Program-made: the position numbers and the translations under genes | Shown here: piece by piece, positions 3,205-33,991 of the stretch | Numbering within the stretch: position 1 is the stretch's first letter | Layout: every line of letters begins with the position of its first letter | Notes under the pieces: generated by a model | Databases searched by the model: none | The model's input: only the letters and a program-made list of their open reading frames with translations | What the model was told of the DNA's origin: nothing | Assembly (NCBI GenBank): GCA_015179125.1 | Contig: WHVA01000291.1 | Location: 62,001 to 126,000 of the forward strand | Direction: 5' to 3' | DNA: 64,000 nucleotides | DNA from: Gautieria morchelliformis | Taxonomy: Eukaryota; Basidiomycota; Agaricomycetes; Gomphales; Gomphaceae

Positions 3205-5095
3205 GTAACCATGGTGCGCAAAGCGTGTAATATGAAGGGGATAGCGAAGGTATGGTGGCAGACGATCCAGTGCCATTGACCCTCTGACCTGTTTTGCTCA
3301 GGATGCTATGAGGTTCATTTGTACTGATACCAACTGCTATTTCGACCCAGAAATGTCTACCCAGGATATTTGCCGCTCTTGTGTGAGAGATATCTTCGTG
3401 GGTACGTCAAGGTATTGCGATTCACTTTCGACTGAATCCGATTGTTTTGCTAGAGAAGCGGTATGCATTGGATCATTCTAGTTATGTTATGCGGTTCGAT
3501 GAGATCTGTGAATCCGATAACACTATCGAAGGTGCATGGGTCTCCAAAGTATGGCTAAAAGGTAATCTCCTATTCGACTCTACTATCAGTTTGTAACGTT
3601 CTAAAGAGCTCCATAGATTGGCGGCAAGACAAGCCAAAGATGCATAAAGCAGAGGAAATGGACCCCGCTCCAGATGCGCCGGCGTACGCCGATCATGTTC
3701 CGGCCACTTATCTCCAACCCTTGTTCCCAACCCGGAGTCCCATAATTTCAAACATTGATCACCCTCGTGTATCATGCTCGGCGTGCAACAAAGAAGTGTT
3801 ATTGTCAAAAGAAACGAGGCAGGAACTTGAGCAACAGGTCGATCGCGAAAAGGCAAGTTGATAAATATGTAGATGGCGAGCCATCTGACAATTTCCATCG
3901 ACATTAGGAGAGACTCAGAAGCATCACTTCTGCCGTTGAATTGGACATGGACCCAGATGTCGTTCCTGGAGTTAGCCAAGTTATCGTCCCTGCGGAATTC
4001 TTACGTCAATGGCGTGCATGGATCAGTCGTCCACAAGAGAACGCTCGTCCCGGCACTATCGACAATACTTGGCTTATTTGCCAACATAAACGTTTAATTA
4101 TTGATCCTAGCGTGCCTCAAGACCTCAGGAAGTTGCTCTCACTTGTTTCGCTTGCTGATTGGGAAATACTCCAAGACTTGTAAGTTTTACATTACGCTCA
4201 TATACAGACCTTACAAGGCAGGCGTCTAGATATGTCGGGGGTCCATTGATACGTGTGACAGGTCTTGCATGCCCGAGTCAAGAATCCGAGGCTACTTCAG
4301 CTGTGACTCACGACTTTGAAGCTTGTGAAGAATGTCGGAGTGAAAGGCACGTCATATTTACTTTTTCAATCACCCCATGGCAAATTTCTGTGGTAGGTTA
4401 AGCAACTTTGAAACCGCAACCATTATGGTGCGGATGCTTGGTGGGGAGTTAGACCCCACTGAGGAAGGTGCCCTGAAGGACGAGGTTGATTCCCTATCGC
4501 GTCGCGGAAGCAAATTACTGTAATGGCACATCTGAACACCATACCAGCCAGTCACATACGCCTGGCAAGCCCTTGCGGACATCCAGTAGACTTCGAAAAT
4601 CCAAGCAGAGAGCTGACCGAAAGTATGTTACAATTCGGAAGTCCTCGACGGTCAAGGATATCAAGATAGAGGTAAGGATTATCAGCGCTGTAGCGTGTAG
4701 CATCAAAGTTGAGCTCAAACCCTTAGTTTGAGGAGTTTAATATACCACCCATCTACCCACGATTGTATTTCAAGAACCAGGAGCTCTCCAATAATCTATA
4801 TACGGTGGCCTCTTTTGGCATCCTAGCCAATGATGCCCTCGAATTGTGCGAGGAAAAGGAGAACGACGACGTAATAACTTCGGACGGGGAACAATGTAGT
4901 CGGAAGAAGGTCGGGCTTTCGGAGGACTATATTAAGCGGGATCTAGCTCCAAAGCCCTCCAGTGAAGCCGATCTCCTCTCCAGAAGTGACGCCCAACCCG
5001 AACCATTGTCCAGTATGTACCTTCTTCATCAATCCGGACGACCTAACCATCTGTTCCATGTACAATGTGGCTCCAAGACCAAAGTCGAAGGCTAA
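3205..5095 (+). pseudogene. USP48-like ubiquitin hydrolase, 3' half only
   Basis: Exon-like blocks correspond to the part of a USP48-type deubiquitinase downstream of the catalytic core. They include DUSP-like segments (near 3455-3560 and 3915-4180, with WLICQHKRL), a ubiquitin-like domain (KYVTIRKSSTVKDIKIE near 4620, continued by LYFKNQELSNN at 4765) and a final RanBP2-like zinc finger (HCPVCTFFINPDDLTICSM near 5000). The peptidase core with its Cys and His boxes is absent, because homology to copy 2 begins at 3205 inside the gene. With no start or catalytic domain it is a truncated duplicate. Some blocks read open for longer here than in copy 2, including the CRSCVRDIFV block that is shifted there. 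Confidence 0.85.
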
Positions 5096-5418
5096 GGCAG
5101 TCTACTTCAAATCGGACGTACTGTTATCACTGTTATCACTGTCTATTTGTTTTTTACGTCAGTTTCTATCTCGCTGTCAGTGTTCCACATAATGTTTGTA
5201 CTTTTTACTAGTATATCACCGTAACCATAATTCCAAGAAAAAACAAAATCGAACGAAAAGGAAGAAAGATGAAACGTGGTCCATGAAGGTACAGAAGGTG
5301 ATCGTGACTTCTAGAGGAGCAGCAGCAAGCGAACCAATGATACAGAGCATCCATGACATGATGCGCAAGGCAACACAAGAACCAAGAAGAACAACATTAA
5401 CCCGGAAAGGAAGGAGGC

Positions 5419-8166
5419 TCACGGATACATGGGGCCCATCATAGGATAGTCGGAAAGAATGTCCAATTCGGCCGGGAACGAGGTGGGCCCGTCTAATGCG
5501 GCTGATGAGGTAGGTACATGCCGCACCACATCAGGAGCCAACGGGTATTGAGAGGGGTCGGGAATACATGGCGTCACCGGCTGCGTGTTTCGCTGGATGA
5601 TGGTTTCCGCTGTAAGCATAACGTCGATCGGCGAAGTCAACGTGTCTGTTTGTTCCACGGCCTGTGCAACCGCCGTTTTAGTTGCGCTTGAGACCTCGTG
5701 CATGGTAACTTCCTGCACCCCAGAATTGTACTCGGCAGGGATGCCGGTCGCCATCTGTATAACCGCAGAATGATCAGCGGCGACCTTGTGCAAGGCCCAG
5801 AGCACAACGTCCGTCCCGGCACGAGCAAGAGCATCAGAGGCGTTTGTAGGTTGTTCGGAGGCCGCATGGGACGGTGCTGACAGCGCGTCATTGATGGCGT
5901 GCGCGGTCACCGTGAGGACCTGCTCCTGTCTCGTGAGGAATGTCTGGAGCTGAATTTGCTGCTCCGGATCTGGGTTTGGGGCGGCTTGGACAGAGTGCGC
6001 CTCGATTAATACCGCTTTTATAGCCCTACAAAGTGGACGCGTGAGCTACAGGAAAAGCATTGTAGAGACATGTGTACTCTGTGACGACGGTCAGGGCCTC
6101 CTGGTACGGTTCTGGAGTTGCTTGAGAAGTAGGTTTTGGGACGTGTCTTCTGACACAAAACTATGTCAGCCGAGCTATCATATGGTACGCCCTACGGACC
6201 TTGTTAAGTGATTTGAGGTCGTCTGAGGGACCACAGGGTCACTAACCCCCCTGCGGTCACCAACGAGTGACGGGCGTCGAGTCCCCATGTACGCACTGGG
6301 ATCGTCACGGGAGAGAGGCGCCACAAAGAGGAAGTATTTTTGAGAAAGGGCAACCTCTTTTCCCTCCTGCATGAACTAAAGACGGTTAGTAGAGACGGAC
6401 CAGGATATGGTACAATATGCTCACCCATCCCTCCACCACGATCTCCGTACTCAACGTGTCCGAGCTAGGAGTCCCAGATAAAACATCTTCGTTCCAGGCC
6501 AACCATGGGGCTAAGGAAGGACTACTGAATTTAACTTCAAGGTTACTTCTCGAAGCTTGAGGGTCCCATACGCGGGGGCGGAACTGCCACTTTAGCCCGA
6601 CGTATGCAACGCCAGGGAAGGAACCTGCTATCTTGCGCCTGAATGGACGGAAGAGCCAACCACCCTCAGGCGCCTTTTTCGCGTCGATGTTCCAAATGCG
6701 ATTGCCATTCGACTTGGCCCTATTACCATCTTCGTTGAAGCGGGAGATGTAGGGATTCGTCCACAGGTAGTGTCGGACCTGAATGATGGCGTGAGAATAC
6801 TGCACATAAGATGACGCCTAGCTACGGACCTTTTTCATTGGTATGACGTCCTCAGAAAGACCCTGCCTCGCCAACTATAGTGACGACTTAGTACCACTTG
6901 AATGTCAGGATACTTGCCAGGATACGTGCCTGCTCCGAGAACCCGTTTGTAAACGCTTGGATACGAAACTTAAAAGGCCGAAAGTCAGGCGACTTGTCAA
7001 GGCGCTGCATCTTCTTGGCCATAAGGAGTTGATGAATAGGTTCGCCTTTGCTATCCGCCGCATCAACTCCAGTGCCGAAAAATCAATATGAGGCACACGT
7101 CATCCCACAGCAGAGTCAACTCACGATCCGAGCAGGTCATACTCAAAAATTGAAAAAAAAAGCGGTCGACCTCTGTCTTGAGTTCCGGCGGTATCTCATT
7201 GTACGGGTGGTGTATGGTATATCCGTCCCCTCGTACGCCACCATGGATTCTTCCTGGGGGGTTTTCGCGGTCCGATTCCAAGTCGGGAGAAGAGGATTCT
7301 GCGATGCTAACAGACGTTGACGGGCGCGACGGGTCGATGGTATCCTCTATGCTAGCAGCAGCCACGTTGGACGTAGAAGCGTTGTGGGCAAAGAGATAAG
7401 CGCCAGAATACGATGCACTTCGACTCGGCCGCGCGGGTGGTGGGAGAGGTGGGTGACTTGCTGGATGCGTGTGCTGGGGTGGATGGTACGAGGCAGAATG
7501 GGGCCAGGAATCAGGGGGGCCAGGACCGCGGAAGCGCGGCGCCTGCGCATGAACTACCGCAACCGGTGGGATGATTCCCTGAAGCGGGCCTGTCATAGAT
7601 GGATCATTCCAGCCCGTTGGCGGGGGGGCATTTCCATTAGCGACTGTTGATGCTTTGGGCGTACTGAGGCCAAGAGGGGAGTGGACGGATGGTGCGTGGT
7701 GTGTTGAATGCGAATGTGAATGCGAGTGCTGTTGGGGATGAGGATGCGGCGGCATGTGTGGTTGATGTTGCTGTTTCTGCAGAAGCGCATGTTGGTGAGC
7801 AATCGCAGGGTTGCTCCCATTACCTCCAGCCGAAGACTCTGAGCGGGACGATGATGGCGTAGAGAACGTAGTGGACAGCGACATCGGTTCGAGGGGGGGA
7901 GCCATGTGTTGCGGCCGTGCCTGATGCGCGGCAAGGGTGTGATTACCAGGTGGGAACGTCTGAGAATGAAGAAGGGGCGGTGGAATGGACATTTGGGACA
8001 GGACTGAGGGGGGTATCGGGGGTGCCGAAAGGGGGGCAGACGGGGGTCCAGACAATAAGCTCGTCACTTTTGAGGCCGGAGAGCCGGAACTGGAACCTGA
8101 ACTGAGAGCTGTGGGGATAGACTCGTCCTTGGGCTCAAGCTTGAGGGGTTTTAATATACGGTCACC
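5419..8166 (-). CDS. His/Pro-rich conserved basidiomycete protein, copy 1
   Basis: A minus-strand gene of at least four exons. The first visible exon (about 8166-7150) is low-complexity: Ser/Pro-rich, then a PHPHPQQHSHSHSHSTHH run, then HP and PPPARPSRS stretches. A donor GTATGA ends it. The next exon encodes AKKMQRLDKSPDFRPFKF. Another, near 6800-6390, carries YISRFNEDGNRAKSNGN and FRPFRRKIAGSFPGVAYVG. The last ends at 5419. The domain exons look like a conserved agaricomycete protein I have met but cannot name. Composition suggests a nuclear regulator; that is inference. The start is unresolved: the open frame has no nearby in-frame ATG, and CTGCCCAG at 8167 looks like a splice acceptor, so a first exon probably lies in the upstream tandem repeats. 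A near-twin lies at 21169-23907. Confidence 0.75.
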
Positions 8167-8253
8167 CTGGGCAGAAGCGCACTTGGCATTTGGAATAACA
8201 AATGTAGACACCAGCTCAAGGTGTAATTTTGAGAGAAGCCAGATCGCTCGTAG

Positions 8254-9255
8254 ACGTCGCGGGAGTGAATGTGCACGTTCCCAGGAAGCATCGGAGCACG
8301 ATTTTGAGACCTGATTTGGGGCAGGCGTGATCAGGAGACATTCCGATGGACCGGGTGACCTGACGCCTTGAGGTACATTCTCCCAGCATTCTGAGATGAG
8401 GCCTTTGTTGGCGACGTGGATATATGGTGCACCGAGCCAGTCTGCAAGACACGCGACGGTGGGCGTGCATACTCACCAAGGCTGGAAATATTTTAAAGGA
8501 GGAGGAGAGGAGGAGAGCGCATACGGGTGTGTATGGCGAAGACGCTGCTGAAGAGAAGCCACCGAATTGCATAAACGTTACACTTGAGCGACCCTGACCG
8601 CTTGTAATCGCGAGAAGAAGCCAGAGCGCTGGCAGACGTCGCGGCAGGTGAATGTGCACGTTCCCAGGAAGCATCGGAGAACGATTTTGAGATGTGATTT
8701 AGCCCAGGCGTGACCAGGAGACATTCCGATGGACCGGGTGTCCTGACGCCTCGAGGTGCATTCCCCCAGACATTCTGAGATGAGGCCAAGAAGTGGATAT
8801 ATGGTCCTCCGATCCAGGCTGCCTGCCAGACACGCGACGGTGGATATGCATAACCCCCAAGGCTGGGAATTATTTAAAGGAAGGCGAAGAGCAGGAGAGG
8901 GAGTGGGGTGTGTATGGAGAAACTCGCCGCTGAAGCAAAGTCGCCGAATTGCATAAGCATTACACCTGAGCGGCCCTGACGTGGCTTGTGATTTGGAGAG
9001 AAGTCAGAGCGGTGGCAGATGTCGCGTAGGTGAATGTGCACGTTCATGAAGCATCGGAGCACGATTTTGAGACCTGATTTGGGTTAGGCGTGGTCAGGAG
9101 ATATTCCGATGGACCGGGCGTCCTGACGCCTTGAGGCACGTTCCCCCCAGACATTCTGAGATAAGACTTTGTTGAAGAAAGCGAGTCGCAAGCGAATACC
9201 ACACTCCGGACACGGTAGAACGGTGCTCCGATCCAGCCCGCAAGACGCGTGACGG
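8254..9255. repeat. About 380-bp tandem repeat, 2.6 units (copy 1)
   Basis: Units begin at ACGTCGC or ATGTCGC at 8254, 8636 and 9019, giving lengths of 382 and 383 bp and a partial third unit of about 235 bp. Each carries GTGCACGTTCC, ATTCCGATGGACCGGG and AGACACGCGACGGTGG-like blocks. The array sits directly upstream of the minus-strand His/Pro-rich gene, so it probably contains that gene's promoter and possibly a first exon. Long minus-strand open stretches recur in the units, but I do not think they are protein genes. Confidence 0.88.
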
Positions 9256-9518
9256 ATAGCGACGTCAGCCTTTCGACGTCAGCCTTCAGAAACAAAGTGG
9301 CACTAGCGAGTAAAGCGCTCATGCCAAAGATGGCACGAACACACAGCACAACAATGGCTCAGACTCTGTCCGTCGTCTCCGGGACAGAGTCACGGTCAGG
9401 TCACAGACACCACCAATCGCGAATCCTTCCACGTCGATTCGCAAAGAAATCCGCCATCCATAGACTCCCTTCAAGTACGGGTATGGACTTTACCGTCGTC
9501 GAAAACTTGAACCCACAG

Positions 9519-9729
9519 CCTCTAGAGAAGGTAACCTACTGCTATCTCCGGAGACTTCTCACAAGACTAACAGCAGTCCCTTTCAGTCTCTTGCGAAGTC
9601 TCCGGATACGGTAGACAGCTTGCCCTCTCTAGAGGTTGTCAAGTAGTTCACTATTTCCAAGGAAATAGTACCAGTGTTGATCTCACCCTGATCGCAATAT
9701 CGCTCGAGGACTTGATCTCGAGATCAAGT
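9519..9729. other. Cluster of palindromes and a large imperfect hairpin (copy 1)
   Basis: Bases 9519-9635 form an imperfect hairpin with arms CCTCTAGAG/CTCTAGAGG outside and TCTCCGGAGACTTC/GAAGTCTCCGGA inside. Downstream are a 9-bp inverted repeat with a 2-nt loop (ACTATTTCC-AA-GGAAATAGT, 9650-9669) and a perfect 20-bp palindrome ACTTGATCTCGAGATCAAGT (9710-9729). All three are kept in copy 2. They could fold as RNA or mark an old small mobile element; function unknown. Confidence 0.75.
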
Positions 9730-10004
9730 TATCGGGGGAAGACCTGGGTGTAAAACAGTGCTCACCGCCTTCCGCCAGAGAAAGAGAAAGACAGTGAACA
9801 GGCATATTTCTCATACCGTTTCTAGCAGTGTTTGAAAACCTCATGATATGTTGCACGCCAGCTTGATATCCATGCCTGGAGGAACGCCTATGTTATCGTC
9901 CCGAACATATATTCGACCACATCAGGAGCGGCATTCCAACCTGCAATCCAGAAATTCACTGGGTATGTGGAACATACCTTACTTTACTGAGACGAGTGTT
10001 TCGT

Positions 10005-10359
10005 ACTGAAGACGTTTGAACAGCAGTTGACCTGAGGCACTTCAGTCCAGGTCATTCATTACTCCCGTATCTACTGGTCAACCAAGCCGCCATGATGATC
10101 AGTCGACAAGTACGTCAATATAGTTTCACCTGTTGTTCACCGAGTATCTGAACACTGGATAGACGACTGCTCGTGAGACAGCCGGGTATGATCTCGGGAG
10201 AGTCTGCAATGTACTCAAGACATTTGAACAGCGGTTGACCTGCGGGATATGATCAGTCGACAAGTATGTACATTGAGTTTCACCTGCTGCCGAGTATCTG
10301 ACCACACAATAGATGGCTGCTCGTGAGACAGCCGGCCATTATCTCGGGAGAGTGCAATG
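10005..10359. repeat. Two-unit tandem repeat (about 207 and 148 bp)
   Basis: Both units share the blocks TTTGAACAGC-GTTGACCTG, GATCAGTCGACAAGTA, CCGAGTATCTGA and GCTCGTGAGACAGCCGG, then end in TCTCGGGAGAGT. The second unit is shorter by an internal gap of about 55 bp. The same pair is present in copy 2 at about 25655-26010. No coding potential seen. Confidence 0.75.
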
Positions 10360-12483
10360 GCCGGCCTAGTTGTGGAACCCGTCAATGGGAGGCGCAAACT
10401 GGAGAGGTGGTTGGAAAATTGGAGAGATGGTTTCCCATGAAATTGAAACGGAATAAATAGGTATAGTGTACAGGACATCGACGGAAGGCTGCCGTCCTGT
10501 TTTCAAGGGCAAGATCGACCAACCCGGACTAGAAGTGTCAAGATTCCTATTTGGTACGTCCATGCCCTACGAAGCGACTCCTATATCTGAGTTGACTGAA
10601 CTGTCGACTGCTCTCAGGTTAATGATAATATACATGGCCGACACGTACCACCGTTACTTGCAGCTTTTGCACTAGGTGACACCAGCAACCATCTGATCCG
10701 TCGCAGGTGTAGCAACGATGGCGCTGCAATCGAGTCGTTCGGAGAGAGCTGGAAGCTGGAGTGGCTCTCTTAGACACGAGTGGTCATTGCGCGGCGACCG
10801 GCTGTCACCGGCCTGGGTGGTCGGCCACTCTTCTGTCTTACCCTCTCGCTCTTCCGTCTCACTACTAGAAGCAGGGACAGCCACTCAATCCCTAGTCCAG
10901 AACGCAGGATTGACAGGGCCTTGGCCGATGTTACCACCAATGCTGTATACAGTGTTTATTCCTGTCGATTAACCCGACTGTCTAATCTTCATTAAGCTAG
11001 CCGTCACCAGAGTCACCAGAGTCACCAGATCGACATGATCTCAACGTTCACTCCTACTCCATTTTCCTTCGACCTGCGACCAATCCCATGATCCCATGGA
11101 CGCCGCTGCTTGTGATAATTAAGCAGCACTAAACTTCTAACTGGCTATCCCAACGGTTTACATAAGATCGCGACTGGGCTCTCGACGTACGGTCGCCTTC
11201 ATCTCTCGGGATCCCTACCACCAATCTCGACCACTCAAATAGATTATGAATCCGATGGTTCTACTATGGTCCTCCCACTGTCCGTGCATTCAAGCTCTAT
11301 CGATACTAGCCCCCGGACTCGTATTTCTTACCCTCGGTACGGACAAGGTATGTTACACATTCCGATAGCCTTACGGAGAGTGGTTAGCTGAAGCTTATGA
11401 TGTCGCAGGAGATTCTCAACTCCGTGATATTCTGGCGCCCGGCAGACGTACTTTTAGGGTTGGGACGTGCGCTGCGGAACACTACGCTGGGCGCACAGAG
11501 TGTGGATAGTGGGAACGAATGGTTCGGCGGGGAGAAAGTGCCTGACTCGCGAGCAAGGTGGTGAAGTTAGGTGCATGATCGTTGACTCACCACTTTCTGC
11601 TCGCGACCCGAGGATCGATTACAATTTCCAATTGTGAGAGTTCTGAGGAACTAGAAAGAATGCTGTCTGATGGTGAGTTTGAATGAAAGCCTCGCAGTTC
11701 CATACCTCAACCTGTGTCTATCGCGATCCCCCAACTGGGAAAACCCCCCTATTGAGTCATAAAAATTGGTCGAGTGCCTGCTTTCTCAGTACTTACTGCG
11801 TGGATAGTGGCTACTGTCATATATATATATAGCGATTATCTGGAAAAGTTTCAACATACACGTCTCATACTGGTGGCCTCGAGAACTGCTAATGGTGGTC
11901 CATGTACTGTAGTTATACGTGCGGGAATTACACAGCTTCAGGTTCAATGTCTCCCAGAACTCATCCAGGATCAAGTGACTGTACGCGAGTACGCACACTA
12001 ATATCTTGAGGCCTGAAGCGCCGAGCTTCATTCGGGGGAGCTAGGCTTGTACCCCTTGGCATGTCTCAAAATAGCAGCGATGTTGAAGAACTTGGGACAA
12101 GCCTGCAGTTCTAGAGAAGAATGTCAAGGTTGAGCGACTATTGTGTAGTACATCGATATTTTTCACCTACACAGCCGGAGACCTGCGGTGAAACTAACTG
12201 TTAAGAGCAGTTAGCTGTTAAGGTTACAGAAACGGTTCCCGACTCCAGAGTGCCACGTGACTACACGCAGGGAGTCACAGTCGCGATCGACGTGACAGCT
12301 GGTAACGCACATAACCTAGTGCGTATGCAATGAGACACACATTCGCGACCATTGACACTTGGGGAGACATCGCGGCAGAGTTTCTTCACTGTCTCTGTGA
12401 CCGGGCCGGAATACGGCAGTGCCATGATGCCGCGCCTCGGTTGTCCTTTTGCCGCCTACTACCCACCTCGAACACTACGAACG

Positions 12484-15400
12484 ATGGAGAACGGCAAGGG
12501 AAACGATATGAGCGCAGTACCGTAAGTCCACGATCACTTCTCTATCAAGCCAATCCTTGACGCTCAACCCTGAAGTATTGCTCCGACAATAAGCGCTGTC
12601 AAAGTTGCAGGAAAGCCTCTTCCTTCTATACTGACTCATGGCGATCGACAACAGACTTAACGTGCATCCATCTTCCCAATGTCGGTCGGTTCGGCAAGCG
12701 TCCTGGTAACTACTACGTGAAGCTCTTTGTCGATCAGGATATCCAGAAGACTGCGGTAGCTGGGAGAGGCAATACTGCTTCGTGGAATGTGGCATTCTAT
12801 TTGTATGTCAATTCCAGTGTTATTGTGTTCACGCGATTTTAAACGCATGGCTAGCAACAACGTGCATGCGTCTTCCGTATTAGAGATTCAAGTCTATGGC
12901 CATCATACCTTTGCACCTGACGACTACATTGGCGGTGTTAAGGAAAGGATTGAGCTGATTCTTGCTGAAGGAGTAACAGGAGGTCAGTCCTTTTCGCTCG
13001 TCGACTGAATGCACGCATAGTCATCGAACGCAGCACCCGTTCACCACAACCTGAGTAAATCCGACAAGGCAGGGAAGATGCATCAAGTACAGACTATCCT
13101 AGAGTTCACTATTACGTCTTTCTCAACGTCAGACGAGGCGCTGGAGGGCCAGTTGAACGATGTCGATAATATGAACCCTGCGCCGTCCTTAATCATTGGT
13201 GCAGGGGATGTGGTCGACGGCGCCACTTCGACCACCAATATTATCAATGCAATAACAGCGGCTTGGGAGCCGCTCCTGCACAAGATCAAGCGGTTTATTG
13301 AGATTGTGGATGGAATGTCAGAGGTATAGCTCAACTTTCGGCCGTCTCCCGAGACATCTTATGTACATGGCTTTCTTGCTTCTAGCTCCATCCTTACGCA
13401 AAAATGGCATGGTCCATCCTGTCTATTGCGCACAAGGTTACATCTATGACATCAACTTGATAGATATATCTGACGTCCGGGATTGACTACATCCAGACGA
13501 GCATTGCTCAGAAGGACCGGGACGATAGCATCAATGAGCTGGCGAAGGCCATTGGAGACACCTATGCATTCGTCCACTTGGCGGAGCCGTTGAAGAAAAT
13601 TGAATCGCAAGAGTCAATTATCATATCCTTAACGAATCAGACGGTAGAGTGCAGTTACTTCATCCGCGACTATGCCAAAAACAAGAATGTCTGTATGTCG
13701 GTTCCCACTGTGTCAGGTGGCACTAGCTCTTATTGATCTTTGTTCAGGGAAAAGAACCGCGAAAAATATGTAGTGTCGGATGTCGACAGCAAGGTCAAAC
13801 AATTCCAGGACACGTTCAACAAACTCCGGTTGGCGTTACAGGAACATGCCGCCATTTATACCGAAATCACTGTACTACGTGTTCTGGATGCCGTTGGCGA
13901 CCTGTGTGAGTTTTCCGAATGGCGGGGGTTCCTGAGGCTAATAAACCTTGCATTCAGCCGGGGAAATTCAACTTAATGACATGCCCTACGCAGCAGGTGC
14001 TTGCTTCGATCCTGATAAAGGATGTCTTCCAGGTACTCGAGAGAAGGTTATTTCGGAAATATGCGACTGGGTCAACCAGGATACCGACGATACCCCCCGG
14101 ATATTTCTGCTGAATGACGTTGCGGGTGCCGGCAAGTCTGCGATTGCTCACGAGGTCGCTCAACGATTTGATAAGCTCAAACGTCTCGGCTCGTCGTACT
14201 GTTTTGACCGCGCTCATCTGGCAAAGCGAACCCCCGACAATGTCTTTAGCACGATTGCTCGTGATCTGGCCGATCTGGACCCAGCACGCAAAGCGTCGTT
14301 GTTGGAAGTGGTCGGGGAGCAGAGAGCACTTCGGACTACACGCATACCTCGTCAGCAGTTCGAGAAGTTCATTTTAGACGGCGCCCAGGGCCTAACGACC
14401 GTTGGTCCGACGGTGATCGTTATTGATGCATTGGATGAGAGCGGAGACCAGGAATCTCGCCAGGGTCTTTTGTCTGTGCTGGGCAACGAAGCAGCAAAAC
14501 TGCCGCCTAACTTGCGTGTTCTTGTCACTTCTCGTGCGGAACAAGACATCCATGACGCTCTTCTTGGGAAGAAGCCCGTGCTTTCCAGGTCCATAAAGGA
14601 GAATGACCCCTACCCTGCCGATGACGACATTTCCCTCGTGCAAACGCAGCTGGGTAACATTCCGACCCTTGAGCGGAAATGGCCCAACAAAGCTTGGTGT
14701 AGATTAATAGTCGAGAAATCTGAAGGCCTATTTCAATGGGCATCCACAGCTTGTCTATTTGTCAAAGGAGATGGCTTGAAGGGTTTAGATCCTGTCGAGC
14801 AACTTGATATCCTTTTGGCATCGCAGAACACGCACCTTAGCCGGTTGGATGGGCTGTATCTTAAGATACTCACGCGGTTATTTGGGCCGGGGAATAACGA
14901 TAGCATTGTGCTTCGATTCCGATCGGTCATGGGCTGCCTACTGGCAGCCAAGGAGCCCCTGTCCATATCTGCCCTCCAGAAGTTGCACGATGAATACGGA
15001 TCGGGAAGTGCGGTGGATCTGATAATTGGGCCAATGGGATCTCCGTTGAGCGACGTCACCCAAACATCTGAGCCAATTAGTCTGCTGCACACATCTTTTC
15101 GTGACTTCCTCACTGATCACAGCCGGAGTGGACCATACTACATCAATATCACTTCACACCATGACGGCCTTGCGCTCTCATGCTTGCGCGTGATGATGGA
15201 GGAGCTCTGTTTCAACATTTGTCAGCTTGAAACTTCACATCTGCGCAACAACGATGTTGTCGACTTGCCGGCACGGATCAAGAAGTACATATCATCACAA
15301 CTTTCCTACCCTTGCCGTTTCTGGGCAAACCATGTCTCCGTCACGACCTTTATGCCTGGTACAGGTACAAAGGTCAAGGAGTTTTTTGACACGAAGCTAC

Positions 15401-15510
15401 TCTACTGGCTAGAAGTTTTGAGTTTGCTCACGAAGATATCCGTCGCACCGGCAGCTCTCTCGTCAATAATTGTCTGGAGCCAGGTGAGCGCCCAAGGGTT
15501 TTGTCTTTGA
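12484..15510 (+). CDS. C2-NACHT NLR-type protein lacking WD40 repeats
   Basis: A spliced gene. Exons at about 12655-12802 and 12855-12982 (intron 12803-12854, GTATGT...CTAG) encode a C2-like domain (NYYVKLFVDQDIQKTAVAG; LEIQVYGHHTFAPDDYIGG). Middle exons (about 13021-13905) encode the helical linker with HPYAKMAWSILS. The NACHT ATPase lies in the last large exon, with Walker A GAGKSA near 14124 and Walker B VIVIDALDE near 14412, and the usual downstream helices (LLYWLEVLSLL). Fungal NLRs of this type usually continue into WD40, TPR or ankyrin repeats; here the gene meets a breakpoint first. Their role is intracellular sensing and non-self recognition. The start is uncertain: the ATG at 12484 with GTAAGT at 12522 is a candidate but its phase does not fit. 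The gene occupies the place of RAD54 exons in copy 1, so it arrived after the duplication. Confidence 0.8.
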
Positions 15511-15604
15511 TAGACGAGCTCGTACGTGAGTCTAATGAGCTTCAGGATAATGACACTACAGCATTCGTAACGGATACCTACAATTTTGTAGCTGTGTTTG
15601 GGAG

Positions 15605-15680
15605 CGTAATCTTTCAGAGTGTTCCCCATCTATTTGTCGGCACTCGCATTTGCACCTGAAGAGGCACTGGTTCGTGTCTG
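15605..15680 (+). other. Junction between NLR gene and RAD54 tail
   Basis: Downstream of a good donor at 15484, the frame reading FPIYLSALAFAPEE resembles the linker that leads into WD40 repeats in fungal NLRs. It passes without a gap into RVWRDGQKK, helicase motif VI of RAD54, at about 15664. The octamer GGCACTGG is at the joint and is also present at the matching place in the intact RAD54 (30384). This may be microhomology at an illegitimate recombination joint. Confidence 0.7.
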
Positions 15681-16175
15681 GCGTGATGGGCAAAAAAAAA
15701 GAATATGTGCGTGCTTGCACATATCCGAATTCGAGACTCGATCTAACCACGCCGGTAGGCTTTGTGTACCGCTTTATAAACCGGGACGATCGAGAAGAAG
15801 ATAATCCAACGTCAAGCGTCTAAACAGGCTCTGTCGTCTTGTGTCGTGGACGAGAAGCAAGACACAAGCGTCACTTCTCTGGTGATGAGCTACGTCAACT
15901 ATTTCTATTCAAAGAACATACTCTTAGCGAAACACACGACATATTCAAGTGCAAACGGTTCAGGGACGGTAAGCAGGTCGTGAAGGCACCGGCTCTTCTA
16001 TACGGTGATGCAAACACGTGAGTACATGTAGTACGCCACTCAAACCGTCGGCTAATGAGTCTTCAGACGGAACCATTCCACGAACGCGGAGCTTAAGAAT
16101 AACCATGATGACTTACTGCATGCGGAGGTTGGACTCGAGGCAATCTCGTTTGTTTTTCAATACATCAGCCATTAA
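15664..16175 (+). pseudogene. RAD54 3' end, orphaned copy
   Basis: Matches the end of the intact gene at about 30384-30895: helicase motif VI, then the C-terminal region with [25 protein letters not shown] in copy 2 and nearly the same here, then an intron and a final exon ending at the stop codon 16173-16175. Relative to copy 2 it has small length changes, for example an altered A run after GATGGG and a lost base near 15864, which shift the frame. With no ATPase motifs I-V it cannot act as a RAD54. It could serve only as 3' sequence of transcripts from the NLR gene. Confidence 0.88.
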
Positions 16176-16317
16176 GAAAGTCATGTAGCGATATCTTACT
16201 TGCGTCGGATCCCTTACCAATCCTAGCATACTTACCGGATGTGAGACCTGAGGTCTGAAGCTTGAAGGTCGACAGGAAGTAATACAGACCAGTGGTTGAG
16301 TTCAGTTCAGTTAGTCT

Positions 16318-19300
16318 TATCTCTGATCCATCTTTGATAACTTATGAACATCTCTTTGCGGCATGCGGTTTCCAGGAGAATTCTGCGAAGCCTATATGCA
16401 AAAACAAGTACTCAGACGTCTTGGAAGACAAGGAGTGCAGGGTGGATGTGGCACAACGTGGAATTAAACCGGTGGCTGGAAGATGAAGACGACGATATCA
16501 TTATCTCGAGCGACGAGGAGCAGTCTATCTGTCACAAGAAGCGATGCAGGGAAAACCCTCATTGTCTTAACTATTTGGGACAGGACAAGCTGGAATCCCA
16601 AGGTCTGTTCCACCGATATATCATTTTATTTATGTAGCCTTATTTTTATGACGCGTAGATGCTGCACTTGCGGCCTTCCTGAACCTGTCCTCTCTTGGGA
16701 AAAGTGCTCTAGATAACGCACGCGAGCCTGATCTTCCGGTCGGCCTCAAGATAACGATTCGTTTTCCTGCAGCAGATGACGCGTGTTTGATGATATACAA
16801 TCGTACGGCAGCTTGGGGCAAGTTGTTATGCCAATGCTTTCATCCAGGAAAGATGTCTGGGGCATTCCATTGTGGTCTCTTCAACTTACATCTCATTGAG
16901 CCTTCCTTTTCCCAGGTTTGGTTCCAAGATCATTCTTTTCGTGACGGTGTGTATAAGTGTAAGCCCTCTCAAGAGGAAGGAAGGGAGCTCAAGGTGAGTC
17001 GCAACGGCCACGAATGTCGACCACGCTTTTATAGCATTAATTGAAGGAATCCCCAATCCTTCAACTACAAGTGGCGTTCGCTGCCCTCCAAGAGAGTACC
17101 CAGAATGTATTCAACCCCATCAAACTTGTAGAGAGATTGCCGCTGAGAGTTTCAGAGCGGCAAGATGCTCAGGAGTATGTTCCCTTGCATAGTATATATT
17201 GTCGACTGTGACACTGACCACGAACAGATTTTCAAAGCTCTTTATGTCACATCCAGCCACTGAATTCGAAAAGCAGGCGTACCCTCGCTCAAGACGCTTT
17301 TATCAGATCAGGCGTGGTTCTTAAGACCATATTGCCACAGTGCCGCTCTAACCGGTGATATAACTTCAGTTTGAAGGGAAATTGGCTTACGGGACAATGT
17401 GTCAGGAATGTCATCAACGTTCTGAGAGAGATACTAACCACCTTTTGGAATTGGAGATTAACTTGGAGGTGTGAACGAGCCGTTGGGCTGGCATTGTACT
17501 GGCACTTCTGGCGTGCGTATACAGACCAATGCAAAACTCACGTCGTTAGGTACTATTGGACGCGATGTGACGGTCTGCAGAATGCCACGCTACACAAAAC
17601 TTCGTCGGTTACCTCCCGTTCGTGACGTTTTTTTTTTCAACATACAACTTCCCCTCGTTGTGAAGTCGACAAGGACTAATTATTCATGCGATTTTCATTT
17701 TATTAGGTCCTTCATTTTTCCGTCCTTCGCTTCGTCTTTGAGGTAGCGAGCCTTTCTCGGAAGAAATCCAAACAGGCTATCCAATTTCCTTCCATTCTAT
17801 GTCGCCTTTCGTTGGTGCGACAGCCCCTGAACTGACACAGTGGCAAGTTCCCAGGAAACGACAACATTCTGACCCTATAGAGGCAACAGACTTGATATAT
17901 GAATTGCGAGGCGTACTGCTACACAAAGCGTCTTCTGCGTACCACGGGCACTATGAGGCACCAGTCTTCGATGTCATGTACGTACTGTCACAGCGATGTA
18001 TCATTTGACGTAAGCTATTGCGCAGTCACTGAATTGAATTTGTGTTAGTGCTAGGCAATTCTACCAGTTCAACGATGAGACCGCGTGTTCCTTGCAGTCC
18101 AAGAAGGATTTTTCGAAAGGCCACATAAATGCCGGGGATGAGAAATAAGATACTTGTTATACCATCTTATCTAACTCGCGAGTGCAGATCTTCCAGCAAA
18201 TCTACTGCAGCCAACAAAAGGCGCCGGACGTACTCCAGGAAGAAGAGACGAGTCGATGACAGCGATGGTGAGATAGAGAAGTACAAATTTGTCTTGTCAC
18301 TGTAACTATATGTGAACATTCACTCATGGTGCATTGCAGCAGTGGTCTACAAGTAGGTGATACCCCCAGTTACATATCCTCTAAGGACGCGTATATACTG
18401 ATTATGCCCGACGTCAGCCGGGACCTTCAAATAATGGATGTCACCCGTTGCCTGAACCTCCACCCCAAGCTCGAGAGCGAGTTGAGGATCTGAACAAGTC
18501 GCACGACGTCGCGTGTGCTTCTTATATGGAGAGGTTTGCTAAGTTCATTATCTGTGGCTGAAAATTGGTTTTAATATTTCGTTTAAGAGACAAAAATCTC
18601 ACCATGGCGTTCAAGCTCATGCAGCAAAAGAAAGGGACATCTACCGTCATTAGCAGATTCATGACTTTGGAGAAGTGAGTTGTATATCTGAATTGCATCC
18701 GAAGATGAAATCTTATACCCAGTATGAACCTGCTGTTATCAGCCGAGGTGCACTCGAAGACTGGCTTGCCAAGGATGTTGCCAGTCCCAGAAACAAAGAG
18801 CCTCCGAGTGGTTCTCGCGGCCATCCACTATCCACAAGCTCTTCCAGGCAGTCATCACAAACAGCAGATGTAATTAGTGAGGACTTCGATCGATTGGAAT
18901 CATCACCGGATCGGCTCGCATCTCCTGTGACATTACAACGCCTGGATAATTCATCAATAATATGTAACCATGGTGCGCAAAGCGTGTAATATGAAGGGGA
19001 TAGCGAAGGTATGGTGGCAGATGATCCAGTGCCATTGACCCTCTGTCCTGCTTTGATCAGGATGCTATGAGGTTCATTCGTACTGATACCACTTGCTATT
19101 TCGACCCAGAAATGACCACCCAGGATATTTGCCGCTCTTTGTGAGAGATATCTTCGTAGGTACGGTATTGCGATTCACTTTCGACCCAATCCGATTATTT
19201 TGCTAGAGAAGCGGTATGCATTGGATCATTCTAGTTATGTTATGCGGTTCGATGAGATCCGTGAATCCGATAACACTATCGAAGGTGCATGGGTCTCCAA

Positions 19301-20849
19301 AGTATGGCTAAAAGGTAATCTCCTATTCGACTCTACTATCAGTTTGTAACGTTCTAAAGAGCTCCATAGATTGGCGGCAAGACAAGCCAAAGATGCATAA
19401 AGCAGAGGAAATAGACCCCGCTCCAGATGCGCCGGCGTACGCCGATCATGTTCCGGCCACTTATCTCCAACCCTTGTTCCCAACCCGGAGTCCCATAAAT
19501 TCAAACATTGATCACCCTCGTGTATCATGCTCGGCGTGCAACAAAGAATTGTTATTGTCAAAAGAAACGAGGCAGGAACTTAAGCAACAGGTCGATCGCG
19601 AAAAGGCAAGTTGATAAATATGTAGGTGACGAGCCATCTGACAATTTCCATTGACATTAGGAGAGACTCAGAGGCATCACTTCTGCCGTTGAATTGGACA
19701 TGGACCCAGATGTCGTTCCTGGAGTTAGCCAAGCTACCGTCCCTGCGGAATTCTTACGTCAATGGCGTGCATGGATCAGTCGTCCACAAGAGAACGCTCG
19801 TCCCGGCCTATCGACAATACTTGGCTTATTTGCCAACATAAACGTTTAATTATTGATCCTAGCGTGCCTCAAGACCTCAGGAAGTTGCTCTCACTTGTTT
19901 CGCTTGCTGATTGGGAAATACTCCAAAACCTGTAAGTTTTACATTACGCTCACATACGGACCTTACACGGCAGGCTTCTAGATATGGCGGGGGTCCATTG
20001 ATACGTGTGACAGGTCTTGCATGCCCGAGTCAAGGATCCGAGGCTACTTCAGCTGTGACTCACGACTTTGAAGTTTGTCAAGAATGTCGGAGTGAAAGGC
20101 ACGTCATATTTGCTTTTCCAATCACCCCGTGGCAAACTTCTATAGCAGGTTAAGCAACTTTGAAACCGCAATCATTATGGTGCGGATGCTTGGTGTGGAG
20201 TTAGACCCCACTGAGGAAGATGGCCTCGTATTTCCTGTCGCGTAGCGGAAGAAAATTACTGTAATGGCACATCTGAACACCATACCAGCCAGTCACATAC
20301 GCCTGGCAAGCCCTTGCGGACATCCAGTAGCCTTCGAAGATCTAAGCGGAGAGCTGACCGAAAGTATGTTACAGTTCGGAAGTCCTGGACGGTCAAGGAT
20401 ATCAAGATGGTGGTAAGGATTACTATCGCTGTAGCGTGCAGCATCAAAGTTGAGCTCAAGCCCTTAGTTGCACGACGAATTTAATATACCAACCATCTGC
20501 CAACGATTATATTTCAAGAACCAGGAGCTCTCCAATAATCTAGACACGGTGGCCTCTCTTGGCATCCTGGCCAATGATACCCTCGAATTGCGCGAGGAAA
20601 AGGAGAACGAGGATGCACTAACTTCGGACGTGGAACAATGTAGTCGGGAACCACGGGAAGAAGGTCGGGCTTTCGGAGGGACTATATTAAGCGGGGGTCT
20701 CCAAAACAGGAAAACCCTCCAGTGAAGCCGATCGCCATTCCTCTCCAGTGACGCCAACCCGAACCATTGTCCAGTATGTACCTTCATCAATCTGGACGAC
20801 CTAGCCATGTGTTCCATGTATGGGTCCAACACCGAAGTCGAAGGTTAAG
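16318..20849 (+). CDS. USP48-like ubiquitin C-terminal hydrolase, probably failing
   Basis: A multi-exon deubiquitinase crossing the left border of copy 2 at 18963. In order: N-terminal CHKKRCRENPHCLNYLGQ (16530); Cys box LGASCYANAFIQ at 16812-16847, with the likely nucleophile Cys; VWFQDHSFRDGVYKC (16916); QDAQE then FSKLF (17165, 17228); His region ELRGVLLHKASSAYHGHYEAPV (17905-17972); FYQFNDE (18062); DUSP-like VISRGALEDWL (18737); further DUSP, ubiquitin-like (KNQELSNN 20518) and RanBP2-like finger segments to about 20849. This matches the USP48/UBP26 family, which removes ubiquitin from chromatin and other substrates. Odd points: the base after the Cys-box exon is GA, not GT, where the donor should be; the exon's upstream border is also poor; and the block at 19120-19145 is one base shorter than in copy 1, shifting the frame. 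It may be a recent pseudogene or contain assembly errors. Confidence 0.75.
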
Positions 20850-21168
20850 ACAGTCTACTTCAAATCGGACGTACTGTTATCACTGTCTATCTGTTTTTTG
20901 CGTCAGTCTCTATCTCGCTGTCAGTGTTCCACATAATGTTTGTAATTTTAACTATTATATCACCGTAACCATAATCTCCCCCGCCCCCCAAAAAAAAGAG
21001 TTGGAACGAAAAGAAGGGATGAAACGTGGTCCATGAAGGTACAGAAGGTGATCGTGACTTCTAGAGGAGCAGCAGCATGCGAACCAACGATACAGAGCAT
21101 CCATGACATGATGCGCAAGGCGACACAAGAACCAGGAAGAACAACATTAACCCGGAAAGGAAGGAGGC

Positions 21169-23907
21169 TCACGGCGGCATGAGGCACGTCATAGGATAGT
21201 CGGAAAGAATGGGCAATTCGGCCGGGAACGAGGTGGGCCCGTCTAATGCGGCTGATGAGGTAGGCACATGCCGCACCACATCAGGAGCCAACGGGTATTG
21301 GGAGGGGTCAGGAATGGATGGCGTCACCGGCTGCGTGTTTCGCTGGATAATGGTTTCCGCTGTAAGCATAACGTCGATCGGCGAAGTCAACGTGTTTGTT
21401 TGTTCCACGGCCTGTGCAACCGCCGTTTTAGTTGCGCTTGAGACCTCCTGCATGGTAACTTCCTGCATCCCAGAATTGTACTCGGCAGGGATACCGGTCG
21501 CCATCTGTATAACCGCAGAATGATCGGCGGCGACCTTGTGCCAGGCACAGAGCACAACGTCCGTCCCGGCACGAGCAAGAGCATTAGAGGCGTTTGTAGG
21601 TTTATCGAAGGGCGCATGGGACGGTGCTGACAGTGCGTGATTGATGGCGTGCGCTGTCACCGTGAGGACATTCTCCTGTCTCGTGAGGAATGTCTGGAGC
21701 TGAATTTGCTGCTCTAGATCTGGGTTGGGGGCGGCTTGGACAGAGTGCGCCTCGATTGATACCGCTTTTATAGCCCTGCAAAGTGGACGCGTGAGCTACA
21801 GGAAAAGCATTGTAGAGACATGTGTACTCTGTGACGACGGTCAGGGCCTCCTGGTACGGTGCTGGAGTTGCTTGAGAAGTATACCGTGTAACGGGTCTTC
21901 TGACACAAACTATGTCAGCCGAGCTATCATATGGTATGCCCTGCGGACCTTGTTAAGTGACTTGAGGTCGTCTGAGGGACCACAAAGTCGCTAACCCCCC
22001 TGCGGTCGCTAACGAGTGACGGGCGTCGAGTCCCCATGTACGCACTGGGATCGTAACGGGAGAGAGGATTCACAGAGAGGAAGTATTTTCGAGAAAGGGT
22101 AGCCTCTTTTCCCTCCTGCATGCACTAAAGACGATTAGTAGAGACGTCAGGACATAGTACAATATGCTCACCCGTGCCTCCACCACGATCTCCGTACTCA
22201 ACGTGTCCGAGCTAGGAGTTCCAGATAAAACATCTCCGTCCCAGGCCAACCATGGGGGTAAGGAGGGACTAACGAGTTGAACATGAAGGTTACTTCCCGA
22301 AACTTGGGGGTCCCATACGTGGGGGCGGAACTGCCACTTTTGGCCGATGTATGCAACTTCGGGGAAAGAACCTGCTATCTTGCGCCCGAATGGACGGAAG
22401 TGCCAACCACCCTCAGGCGCCTTTTTCGCGTCGATGTTCCAGATCTGTTTGCCCTTGGACGCGGCCTTCTTGCCATCTTCGTTGAAGCAAGAGATGTAGG
22501 GATTCGACAGGTAGTGTCGGACCTGATGATGACGTGAGAATACTGCACATAAGATGACGCCTAGCTACGGACCTTTTTCCTTGGTATGACGTCCTTAGAA
22601 AGACCCTGCCTCGCCAACTATAGTGACGACTTAGTACCCCTTGAATGTCAGGATACTTGCCAGGATACGTGCCTCCTCCAAGAACCCGTTTGTAAACGCT
22701 TGGATACGAAACTTAAAAGGCCGAAAGTCAGGCGACTTGTCAAGGCGCTGCATCTTCTTGGCCATAAGGAGTTGATGAATATGTTCGCCTTTGCTGTCCG
22801 TCGCATCAACTCCAGTGCCGAAAAATCAATGAGGCACACGTCATCCTACAGCAGAGTCAACTCACGATCCGAGCAGGTCATACTCAAAAATTGAAAGAAA
22901 ATGCGGTCGACCTCAGCCTTGAGTTCCGGCGGTATGATATTGTTTGGGTGGTGTATGGTATATCCGCCCCCTCGTACGCCACCATGGATTCTTCCTGGGG
23001 AGTTTTCGCGGTCCGATTCCAAGTCGGGAGAAGAGGATTCTGCGATGCTAACAGACGTTGACGGGCGCGACGGGTCAATGGTATCCTCTATGCTAGCAGC
23101 AGGCACCTTGGACGTAGAAGTGTTATAGGCAAAGGGATAAGCGCCAGAATACGATGCGCTTCGACTCGGCCGCGCAGGTGGTGGGAGAGGTGGGCGACTT
23201 GCTGGATGCGTGTGCTGGGGTGGATGGTACGAGGCAGAATGGGGCGAGGAATCAGGGGGCCCAGGACCGCGGAAACGCGGCGCCTGCGCATGAACTACCG
23301 CAACCAGTGGGATGATTCCCTGAAGCGGGCCTGTCAACGATGGATCATTCCAGCCCGTTGGCGGGGGCGCATTTCCATTAGCGACTGCTGATGCTTTGGG
23401 CGTACTGAGGCCAAGAGGGGAGTGGACGGATGGTGCGTGGTGTGTTGAATGCGAATGTGAATGCGAGTGCTGTTGGGGATGAGGATGCGGCGGCATGTGT
23501 GGTTGATGTTGCTGTTTCTGCAGAAGCGCAAATTGGTGAGCAATCGCAGGGTTGCTCCCATTACCTCCAGCCGAAGACTCTGAGCGGGACGATGATGGCG
23601 TAGAGAACGTAGTGGACAGCGACATCGGTTCGAGGGGGGGAGCCATGTGTTGCGGCCGTGCCTGATGCGCGGCAAGGGTGTGATTACCAGGTGGGAACGT
23701 CTGAGAATGAAGAAGGGGCGGTGGAATGGACATTTGGGACAGGACTGAGGGGGGTATCGGGGGTGCCGAAAGGGGGGCAGACGGGGGTCCAGACAATAAG
23801 CTCGTCACTTTTGAGGCCGGAGAGCCGGAACTGGAACCTGAACTGAGAGCTGTGGGGATAGACTCGTCCTTGGGCTCAAGCTTGAGGGGTTTTAATATAC
23901 GGTCACC
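21169..23907 (-). CDS. His/Pro-rich conserved basidiomycete protein, copy 2
   Basis: Near-twin of the gene at 5419-8166 with the same exon plan. The long low-complexity exon is almost identical, with only scattered substitutions over several hundred bases. The exon at about 22530-22200 is very different: GGWHFRPFGRKIAGSFPEV against GGWLFRPFRRKIAGSFPGV in copy 1. Over about 70 residues I count some 14 replacements. The upstream splice acceptor CTGCCCAG is kept, and an in-frame stop upstream of it supports translation entering by splicing. Both copies keep the final exon open to the stop, so both may make protein. The uneven divergence suggests gene conversion over part of the gene, relaxed constraint on one copy, or selection for change. 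Confidence 0.72.
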
Positions 23908-23987
23908 CTGGGCAGAAGCGCACTTGGCATTTGCAATAACAAATGTAGCTCAAGATGTAATTTTGAGAGAAGCGAGATCGCTGGTAG

Positions 23988-24900
23988 ACGTCGCGTAGGT
24001 GAATGTGCATGTTCCCAGGAAGCATCGGTGCACGATTTTGAGACCTGATTTGGGTCAGGCGTGATCAGGAGACATTCTGATGGACCGGGTGACCTGACGC
24101 CTTGGTGGATATATGGTGCACCGAGCCAACCTGCAAGACACGCGACGGTGGACGTGCATATTCACCAAGGCTGGAAATATTTTAAAGGAAGAGGAGAGGA
24201 CGAGAGGGCGTATACGGGTGTGTATGCTGCTGAAGAAAAGCCACCGAATTGCATAAACACACTTGAGCGACCCTGACCGCTTGTAATTGTGGGAAGAAGC
24301 CAGAGCGCTGGCAGACGTCGCGGCAGGTGAATGTGCACGTTCCCAGGAAGCATCGGAGCACGATTTTGAGACCTGATTTGGGTCAGGCGTGATCAGGAGA
24401 CATTCCGATGGACCGGGTCTCCTGACGCCTCGAGGTATATTCCCCCAGACATTCTGAGATGAGGCCAAGAAGTGGATATATGGTCCTCCGAGTCAGGCTG
24501 CCTGCCAGACACGCGACGGTGGGTATGCATACTCCCCAAGGCTGGAAATTATTTAAAGGAAGGAGAAGAGCAGGAGAGGGAGTGGGGTGTGTATGGAGAA
24601 AGACGCCGCTGAAGCAAAGTCGCCGAATTGCATAAACGTTACACTTGAGCGACCCTGACATGGCTTGTGATTTGGAGAGAAGCCAGAGCGGTGGCAGACG
24701 TCGCGTAGGTGAATGTGCATGTTCCCATGAAGCATCGGAGCACGATTGAGACCTGATTTGGGTTAGGCGTGGTCAGGAGACATTCCGATGGACCGGGCGT
24801 CCTGACGCCTTGAGGCACGTTCCCCCGGACATTCTGAGATAAGACTTTGTTGAAGAAAGCGAGTCGCAAGCGGATCCCACGGTCCTGACACGGCAGAAGG
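23988..24900. repeat. About 380-bp tandem repeat, 2.6 units (copy 2)
   Basis: Units begin at 23988, 24315 and 24698. The second unit is 383 bp as in copy 1. The first is about 55 bp shorter, missing a block between the GACGCCTTG and GTGGATATATGG motifs that is present in copy 1. As in copy 1 the array lies upstream of the minus-strand His/Pro-rich gene, so the two genes differ in promoter-repeat length. Confidence 0.85.
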
Positions 24901-30800: not shown

Positions 30801-30895
30801 CGAACGCGGAGCTTAAGAATAACCATGATGACTTACTGCGTGCGGAGGTTGGACTCGAGGCAATCTCGTTTGTTTTTCAATACATCAGCCATTAA
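27814..30895 (+). CDS. RAD54: RAD54 homologous-recombination DNA translocase
   Basis: A complete-looking RAD54. It is a Snf2-family ATPase that works with Rad51 in the nucleus in strand invasion and chromatin remodelling. The start ATG at 27814 opens [11 protein letters not shown] and a basic N-terminal region. Motifs follow in order: HQVEGVKFLYRC spanning a GC-AG intron (donor GCGAGT about 28522); motif I DEMGLGKT (28684); Walker [11 protein letters not shown] (about 29133), the DEGH form of this family; LSGTPIQ (29270); [17 protein letters not shown] (about 29336); [11 protein letters not shown] (30036); [14 protein letters not shown] (30231); and motif [12 protein letters not shown] (30389). 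Introns are short and mostly GT-AG. The final exon ends in YISH and a stop at 30895. About nine introns in all. Only its tail survives in copy 1 (15664-16175). PUS4 starts 188 nt downstream on the same strand. Confidence 0.93.
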
Positions 30896-31082
30896 ACGTC
30901 ATGTAGCGATATCTTACTTACGTCGGATGCCTTACCAATCCTAGCATACTTACCGGATGTGAGGTCTGAAGCTTGAAGGTTGACAGGAAATAATAAAGAC
31001 CTGCGGTTGAGTTCAGTGCTAACTAAGTATAAAGGTCCAAGCTGACGTAAACTGGCGTAAGTAACGGTGAATTAATTTAACC

Positions 31083-33167: not shown

Positions 33168-33958
33168 ATGCGTGTTAAGAAATGTACGCTCCTGCCTGCC
33201 ATGCCAGTTGACCCATCAAAGAAACATGTCCTGGCAGCCACTCTGATACCATACCTCCTCAGCACCACACCATCTCTCCCCACTATCACTCAGGAAGACA
33301 CTGGATCAAGCATGAGCCAAATTGCAGCACAGGCCGTACTCACGCAGAGAGCAAGGCCACAACCTAGTATAGGGGGTGAACATGTCACAGTTGAGTACTT
33401 ATGCCGCATCAGTGAGGCAGAATGCTTGTGGTGTCTTCAGTAAGCCCTCTGCTGGTGTCATTCAGTTATGGAAACTTACAGGCCTTTCAGGTTCACAGTA
33501 GAGGACCTGCAGCACCTCAGCTCACTCTTAGAGCTCCCAGACCCATTGATTACCAGTGGGGGCTACCGATGCCCCCCTCTCGAGTCATTCACCCTCCTTT
33601 GTGCATGTCTCCGCAGCCCTGAGGACCAATGGTCCCTGGCCATGAGGTATGCCTGCATGCAGCCAGCAATCTCACAGATTGTGAACAAAACTGCAAGGTT
33701 CATAGATGTGCACTGGGGCCACTTGCTCGGGTGGGATTCCAAAGGTCTTCTCAGCCCTGAGAGACTGCAGATATATGCATGTGCTCTCCACAACTTTGGG
33801 GCTCCAACCCAGTTGGTCTTCAGGTTTATCAACTGCATGATGATCCTCTGTTCAGCCATAAATGGAGAGGGTCTTCTGTTCTTTGTCAATGGCCCTGGCA
33901 GTACAGGCAAAACTTTTACCTGGAATACCCTGGCTCATTCTAAGATAGCAGCAGTATA
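33168..33958 (+). mobile_element. PIF/Harbinger-like fragment joined to a Helitron-type helicase fragment
   Basis: From about 33468 the frame METYRPFRFTVEDLQHL, then ITSGGYRCPPLESFTLLCAC and SQIVNKTARFIDVHW, resembles the N-terminal part of PIF/Harbinger (HARBI1-type) transposases. At about 33830 it changes without a stop to INGEGLLFFVNGPGSTGKTF, a Walker A region like that of the Pif1-type helicase in Helitrons. The frame ends at 33958. Neither part is complete: the Harbinger DDE core and nearly all helicase motifs are missing. Either a capture event or chance joining of two fossils could explain it. An upstream frame (33168-33440) is not recognised. Confidence 0.6.
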
Positions 33959-33991
33959 AACTGCGCACCCTCTAAGTGCCCATTAGTCAGC

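Follow-up and report, generated by a model that had tools for sequence, protein, structure and literature searches.

The tandem array and its contents

The stretch of Gautieria morchelliformis DNA analysed here, which we call the window, comprises 64,000 nucleotides (contig C328, positions 62001-126000, in an assembly of 122 Mb and 1,113 contigs). Its subject is a tandemly duplicated locus of RAD54, a Swi2/Snf2 DNA-repair translocase, in one copy of which the front of the gene is replaced by DNA of a large family of fungal NOD-like receptors (NLRs) with C2 and NACHT-type domains. When the window was compared with itself by blastn (threshold on the expectation value, E, of 1e-5), bases 3205-11999 paired with 18964-27688 (92.09% over 8,900 columns) and bases 15659-16306 with 30378-31017 (92.78% over 651 columns), while between these two blocks copies 1 and 2 gave no match at that threshold. 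The original prediction had placed the breakpoints at 12000/27690 and 15664/30384, and we find them only a few bases away, at 11999/27688 and about 15660/30379. It had also read RAD54 exons in copy 2 and a C2-NACHT gene in copy 1 between these points, with which both the Pfam and the PDB matches agree. The locus is made up as follows (window coordinates).

3205-11999, forward strand: left block of tandem unit copy 1, with 447 mismatches in 8,631 aligned bases against copy 2 (5.2%)
12000-12012: left joint, with about 13 bases not assigned to either side; homology to copy 2 extends to 11999 and homology to the paralogue on contig C181 starts at 12013
12013-15660, forward strand: 5' fragment of a C2-NACHT-WD40 gene, with C2 and a NACHT-type nucleoside triphosphatase (NTPase) and without WD40
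13945-15507, forward strand: main NACHT open frame, 521 amino acids from stop to stop, its end taking in the start of the last intron
15660-16306, forward strand: right joint and RAD54 tail of copy 1, frame-broken, 92.78% to 30378-31017
16307-18946, forward strand: spacer from unit 1 to unit 2, which also follows copy 0, a third copy
18964-27688, forward strand: left block of tandem unit copy 2, by blastn pairing with copy 1
27689-30379, forward strand: stretch of copy 2 lost from copy 1, by blastn
27814-30895, forward strand: RAD54 copy 2, a 13-exon model of about 820 amino acids

RAD54 is duplicated, as had been predicted, but the duplication is at least threefold, since a third RAD54 unit (copy 0) lies just upstream of the window, at C328:57599-58863. 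The spacer at 16307-18946 is identical at 2,526 of 2,616 aligned bases to C328:58864-61519, the sequence behind copy 0. Bases 3205-8181 are also carried by contig C633 at 90-94% identity, and there the end of the spacer and the left block are contiguous, in one piece, which supports a unit order of spacer, left block and RAD54. Three open reading frames (ORFs) of the left block gave no Pfam match at E 0.01, and Rfam gave no match at its gathering thresholds.

The RAD54 copies

In copy 2, a Pfam query made of the first 11 exons of the 13-exon model found the domains of a RAD54 protein, Rad54_N (4e-42), SNF2 (6.7e-77) and Helicase_C (1e-21), and the single PDB match at E 1e-100 was 1z3i, described as 'similar to RAD54-like' (1.8e-173). 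No other full-length RAD54 came up in the assembly by DNA or protein search. On other contigs, protein matches do not exceed about 50% identity, apart from a dispersed piece of exon 1 and a weak relic on contig C174 (53%). Copy 1 has lost the ATPase front altogether, and its RAD54 tail starts at what we take to be helicase motif VI. The front is missing from copy 0 too: C328:57599-58418 corresponds to RAD54 29601-30429 at 95.7%, and past 58418 copy 0 matches the copy 1 tail and the spacer, up to 18946. The left neighbour of copy 0 is only 75-83% like the left blocks, against 95.7% in its RAD54 part, and copy 0 was rejected as an intact unit. It probably reached RAD54 by a separate deletion, with a joint different from that of copy 1, so that the front would have been lost by rearrangement twice in this array.

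Copies 0 and 1 stand together against copy 2 at 14 of 436 tail sites, the other two groupings being found at 4 sites each, and both carry a 1-base coding deletion. The NLR DNA probably came into a copy 1 that was dead, its frame broken, beforehand, and since the ancestor of copies 0 and 1 would have been out of frame, the NLR DNA would have destroyed no working gene.

Several observations concern the RAD54 sequences themselves. The copy 2 model requires GC-AG introns at 28522 and 29559 (introns 1 and 7), and in our own splice model exons 11 and 12 are in different frames at a run of A residues (30405-30421) whose length varies among copies 0, 1 and 2; the frame clash in copy 2 may be a sequencing error, a real lesion or a wrongly chosen splice site. 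A 149-base piece of exon 1 (window 28195-28343) occurs at 12 other places with 87-96% identity. In the six that were fetched (L033-L038, 92-96%) the flanking sequences can be aligned among themselves, for most pairs across more than 1 kb, and the piece looks like part of a RAD54 exon that a repeat element picked up and spread. At C174:34621-35025, outside the window, a weak match to the sequence upstream of RAD54 (75%) stands beside another weak one, to RAD54 residues 11-59 (53%), perhaps an older RAD54 relic.

The inserted C2-NACHT piece

The piece at 12013-15660 comprises about 470 bases of 5' flank and a coding part whose start codon would lie at 12484. A query of three window exon translations, joined by hand, matched the Pfam C2 domain (PF00168, 6.2e-9), an N-terminal effector domain as fungal NLRs have. 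NPHP3_N was matched above its cut-off (3.7e-23), giving the nucleotide-binding domain of NACHT type, and the Pfam NACHT model itself scored below its own (2.6e-4, 21.3 bits against 26.7). The C-terminal repeats of a fungal NLR (WD40, ANK or TPR) are absent, the sequence being that of RAD54 from 15660.

A genome search with bases 12000-15680 gave 45 matches, which represent 40 places including the window's own, these being the 40 scored of 370 candidates. Among the other 39 scored places, 37 match up to query base 3660-3664 (about 15660 in the window) and two, on contigs C927 and C781, stop earlier. We fetched 16 of these 37 paralogues with the sequence past the joint, at least 3.2 kb for 15 of them and 1.4 kb for L013, where the contig ends. 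Each of the 16 runs on past the joint in family sequence (SALPFAPE or close) and then into WD40-type repeat motifs, with the motif frame broken in L013 and L015 and few repeats in L019 and L024. The Pfam WD40 model was run on one paralogue, L009 on contig C181, and matched it in 14 stretches (1.8e-174). Since WD40-coding sequence continues in the paralogues, the common end at 15660 marks where the window copy was cut rather than where a mobile unit stops. In the copies on C927 and C781 the family match ends before WD40, at the equivalents of window 15492 and 14774, and the following 2.7-2.9 kb hold no WD40 motif, although WD40 may lie further on, behind a later insertion; WD40 loss may not be unique to the window locus.

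These results bear on the idea that C2-NACHT genes form an active mobile cassette, spreading in the manner of a transposon, with the window copy as one of its landings. The size and dispersal of the family, with 40 scored places among 370 candidates, would suit such a cassette, but the ends of the insert bear no inverted repeats, introns are kept, the fetched paralogues share no fixed 5' end with it, their homology beginning anywhere between 12013 and 12515, and the 3' stop at 15660 is the cut point just described. We consider such a cassette extremely unlikely.

The two joints

The presumptive RAD54 start lies about 125 bases downstream of the left joint. At the right joint, CCTGAA is followed by GAGGCACTGG in copy 1 and by AGGTCG in the C181 paralogue, while RAD54 copies 0 and 2 read CCAACAGGCACTGG at this position. 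The octamer GGCACTGG, which the original prediction regarded as shared at the right joint, occurs in all three RAD54 copies and, at this place, in none of the 16 paralogues shown; as RAD54 sequence, confined to the RAD54 side, it was rejected as microhomology. As to the transposon ends and microhomology for which the joints were to be inspected, no inverted repeat of at least 14 bases was found at either joint (target-site duplications, here or around the paralogues, were not searched for, and the loss of RAD54 sequence would hide any at this site), and overlap at the right joint is 0-3 bases, 2-3 at most.

It could be argued that the locus is an assembly chimera, in which an NLR contig was misjoined to a contig with a RAD54 tail. 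No second copy of either joint came up in the genome, which agrees with this: only one of the 40 scored places (of 184 candidates) spans the right joint and only one of 24 matches spans the left one, the window itself in both cases. However, two independent misjoins would be needed, both in register with copy 2, the insert copies no other scored locus (the best is 5.95% mismatched), and the tail is distinct from those of copies 0 and 2. An assembly artefact is in our opinion very improbable.

Lesions in the inserted piece

Two lesions of the coding sequence are private to the window copy.

13769-13770, forward strand: 2-base insertion followed by an in-frame stop before the NACHT exon, absent from all 16 aligned paralogues
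15628-15629, forward strand: site of a 2-base deletion about 32 bases before the joint, from the alignment with the 16 paralogues

The stop stands directly after the insertion in the frame that would pass through the short intron before 13769, and after the deletion at 15628 the frame stops at 15657-15659; with these two frameshifts the piece lacks the continuous reading frame of a fungal NLR. Other changes that set the window copy apart from the same 16 paralogues are in-frame deletions of 21 bases at 13160 and of 3 bases at 14637, and indels at 12623, 12808 and 13452, which we place in introns. Of the window-private codon changes in the NACHT exon, 21 are nonsynonymous and 9 synonymous, with a spread of 11/10/11 over codon positions 1/2/3; a ratio of 2.78:1 is expected from random mutation under the weights used, and the changes of the C181 paralogue are 12 to 11 (4/9/13). 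The window changes thus seem near-neutral and fit a gene without constraint, within the limits of a small sample. Given these codon changes and the two frameshifts that no paralogue shares, the inserted piece is most likely a truncated pseudogene. Of the earlier view that an NLR-type gene landed in a redundant RAD54 gene, what stands is that NLR-family DNA replaces the RAD54 front in a tandem copy; the landing of a gene is not supported, because the piece is a 5' fragment without WD40, carries its own two frameshifts and leads into a tail with the 1-base deletion of copy 0.

At the right joint the NLR frame (ALAFAPE) runs on in the RAD54 frame, within an ORF at 15610-15804, and this agreement could be read as an in-frame fusion of the C2-NACHT part to the RAD54 tail, giving a hybrid protein now or briefly, in which the motif VI region replaces the WD40 sensor. 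If true, an NLR would have gained part of a DNA-repair protein and the rearrangement would have been caught in the act. However, the two frames would agree by chance in one case in three, and the 2-base deletion before the joint with its stop, the private frameshift at 13769 and the tail lesion common with copy 0 all speak against such a protein, which we regard as highly unlikely. We give an equally slight chance to a hybrid receptor that was expressed before its decay or is still intact in other strains.

Source of the insert and proposed course of events

The search for a parental NLR, suggested by the original prediction, yielded a nearest scored paralogue on another contig, L009 on C181, though it is 5.95% apart (188 mismatches in 3,159 bases from 12484 on). 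It was also the top-scoring place of the genome search. The 5' flank of the insert is only 77% alike to L009, which is missing sequence near 12311-12466 that L011-L013 have in part, so that L009 is not the literal source. L011-L013 are the next closest among the fetched paralogues (8.7-9.2% mismatch). L025, an NLR that the same contig carries some 35 kb upstream, was rejected as donor, being only 77% identical.

Most likely, the locus is a chimeric pseudogene in a decaying tandem array, produced by non-homologous rearrangement, and both joints occur in the expected order and strand within the array. The anatomy of the locus, the truncation, the private lesions, the third copy and the lesion common to copies 0 and 1 are shown directly; the order of events, the repair pathway and the loss of function we infer as follows. 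A unit of spacer, left block and RAD54 would have been duplicated in tandem at least twice; copy 2 would have kept RAD54, and the frame would have been broken on the branch leading to copies 0 and 1. At a later stage non-homologous repair would have joined into copy 1 a stretch copied from a C2-NACHT-WD40 relative of the C181 paralogue. The likelier route has two steps: the stretch would first have been inserted some 125 bases before the RAD54 start, and a single deletion would then have reached from where the WD40 region starts into RAD54 motif VI. What resulted, without the WD40 sensor and with frameshifts of its own, would then have drifted close to neutrally. A variant of this proposal is a one-step gene replacement, by template switching during repair, in place of insertion and then deletion. 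It would fit both joints, and the approximately 13 bases at the left joint could be filler, but copy 0 suggests that simple deletions into RAD54 do happen in this array, and we hold the one-step route to be possible, if rather doubtful.

Several points weigh against the chimeric pseudogene and its proposed history. Window-private changes in the insert amount to 97 of 3,058 sites (3.2%), a larger share than in the copy 1 tail, where 4 of 436 sites are private. Probably the C181 paralogue is a relative of the donor and not the donor itself, or the tail has been homogenised or converted and the order of events is off; the longer private branch of the insert weakens the dating, not the anatomy. 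Conversion could have spread the lesion common to copies 0 and 1, which affects one base only. The codon counts of 21:9 against 12:11 are a small sample and by themselves no proof of neutrality. Finally, the frameshifts might in principle stem from assembly errors; contig C642 looks indel-rich when compared with its near-twin on C181.

Relation to known systems

According to Dyrka et al. (2014, PMC4986451), C2 is an N-terminal NLR domain only in a few basidiomycota, fungal NLR repertoires vary greatly in size, and WD repeats are highly conserved internally. The window copy resembles these C2/NACHT/WD40 NLRs in its C2 N-terminus and its NACHT-type NTPase, and the WD40 repeats of its paralogues look highly alike, but it lacks the WD40 array and is frameshifted, a fragment and not a receptor. 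A dead, truncated NLR fused to an unrelated gene could be a leftover of repertoire turnover, a link that is ours and not that of Dyrka et al. To call the locus a case of NLR repertoire movement, as had been proposed, is too strong: it represents fragment turnover in a large family and gives no evidence for how working NLRs move.

The likeness to RAD54 lies in the domains of copy 2 and in the copy 1 tail from motif VI, the difference in the missing fronts and common coding deletion of copies 0 and 1. Chimeric pseudogenes can arise from tandem or segmental duplication together with non-homologous end joining. The locus resembles them in its tandem units, its differing front losses, its 0-3 base overlaps and its decayed frames, and differs in that the partner is a fragment of an immune receptor. 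On present evidence the rearrangement is real, and it is a well-resolved example of an ordinary kind. It shows how pieces of a large dispersed fungal NLR family can become fused to unrelated genes, and it is a warning that gene predictors could call a false C2-NACHT-helicase hybrid here. Judged by title, the narrower literature searches yielded nothing on this subject, which is no proof of absence in print. That the sole full-length RAD54 found lies in a rearranging array, with RAD54 exon fragments spread in repeats, is a modest curiosity.

Other elements of the window

Downstream of RAD54 copy 2 lie a TruB-type pseudouridine synthase exon (31761-32552) and then another ORF (33444-33959), which matches PIF1 helicase weakly (21.2 bits, under the 25.9 required); the TruB-type gene is perhaps the original neighbour of RAD54. 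At 34758-35158, 400 bases match their own reverse complement at 87%, forming a large imperfect palindrome. A retroelement at 42572-50068, which we take to be of the Ty3 type, encodes gag, reverse transcriptase-RNase H and a chromodomain integrase and is flanked by direct repeats of about 540-564 bases that are 93.6% alike, probably long terminal repeats. A CxC6 cluster, a type linked to KDZ transposases, is also present, and introns are short; together with the C2-NACHT-WD40 genes these features suggest a basidiomycete. A Copia-type gag and integrase ORF at 60264-62756 lies among repeated segments that recur downstream of the window.

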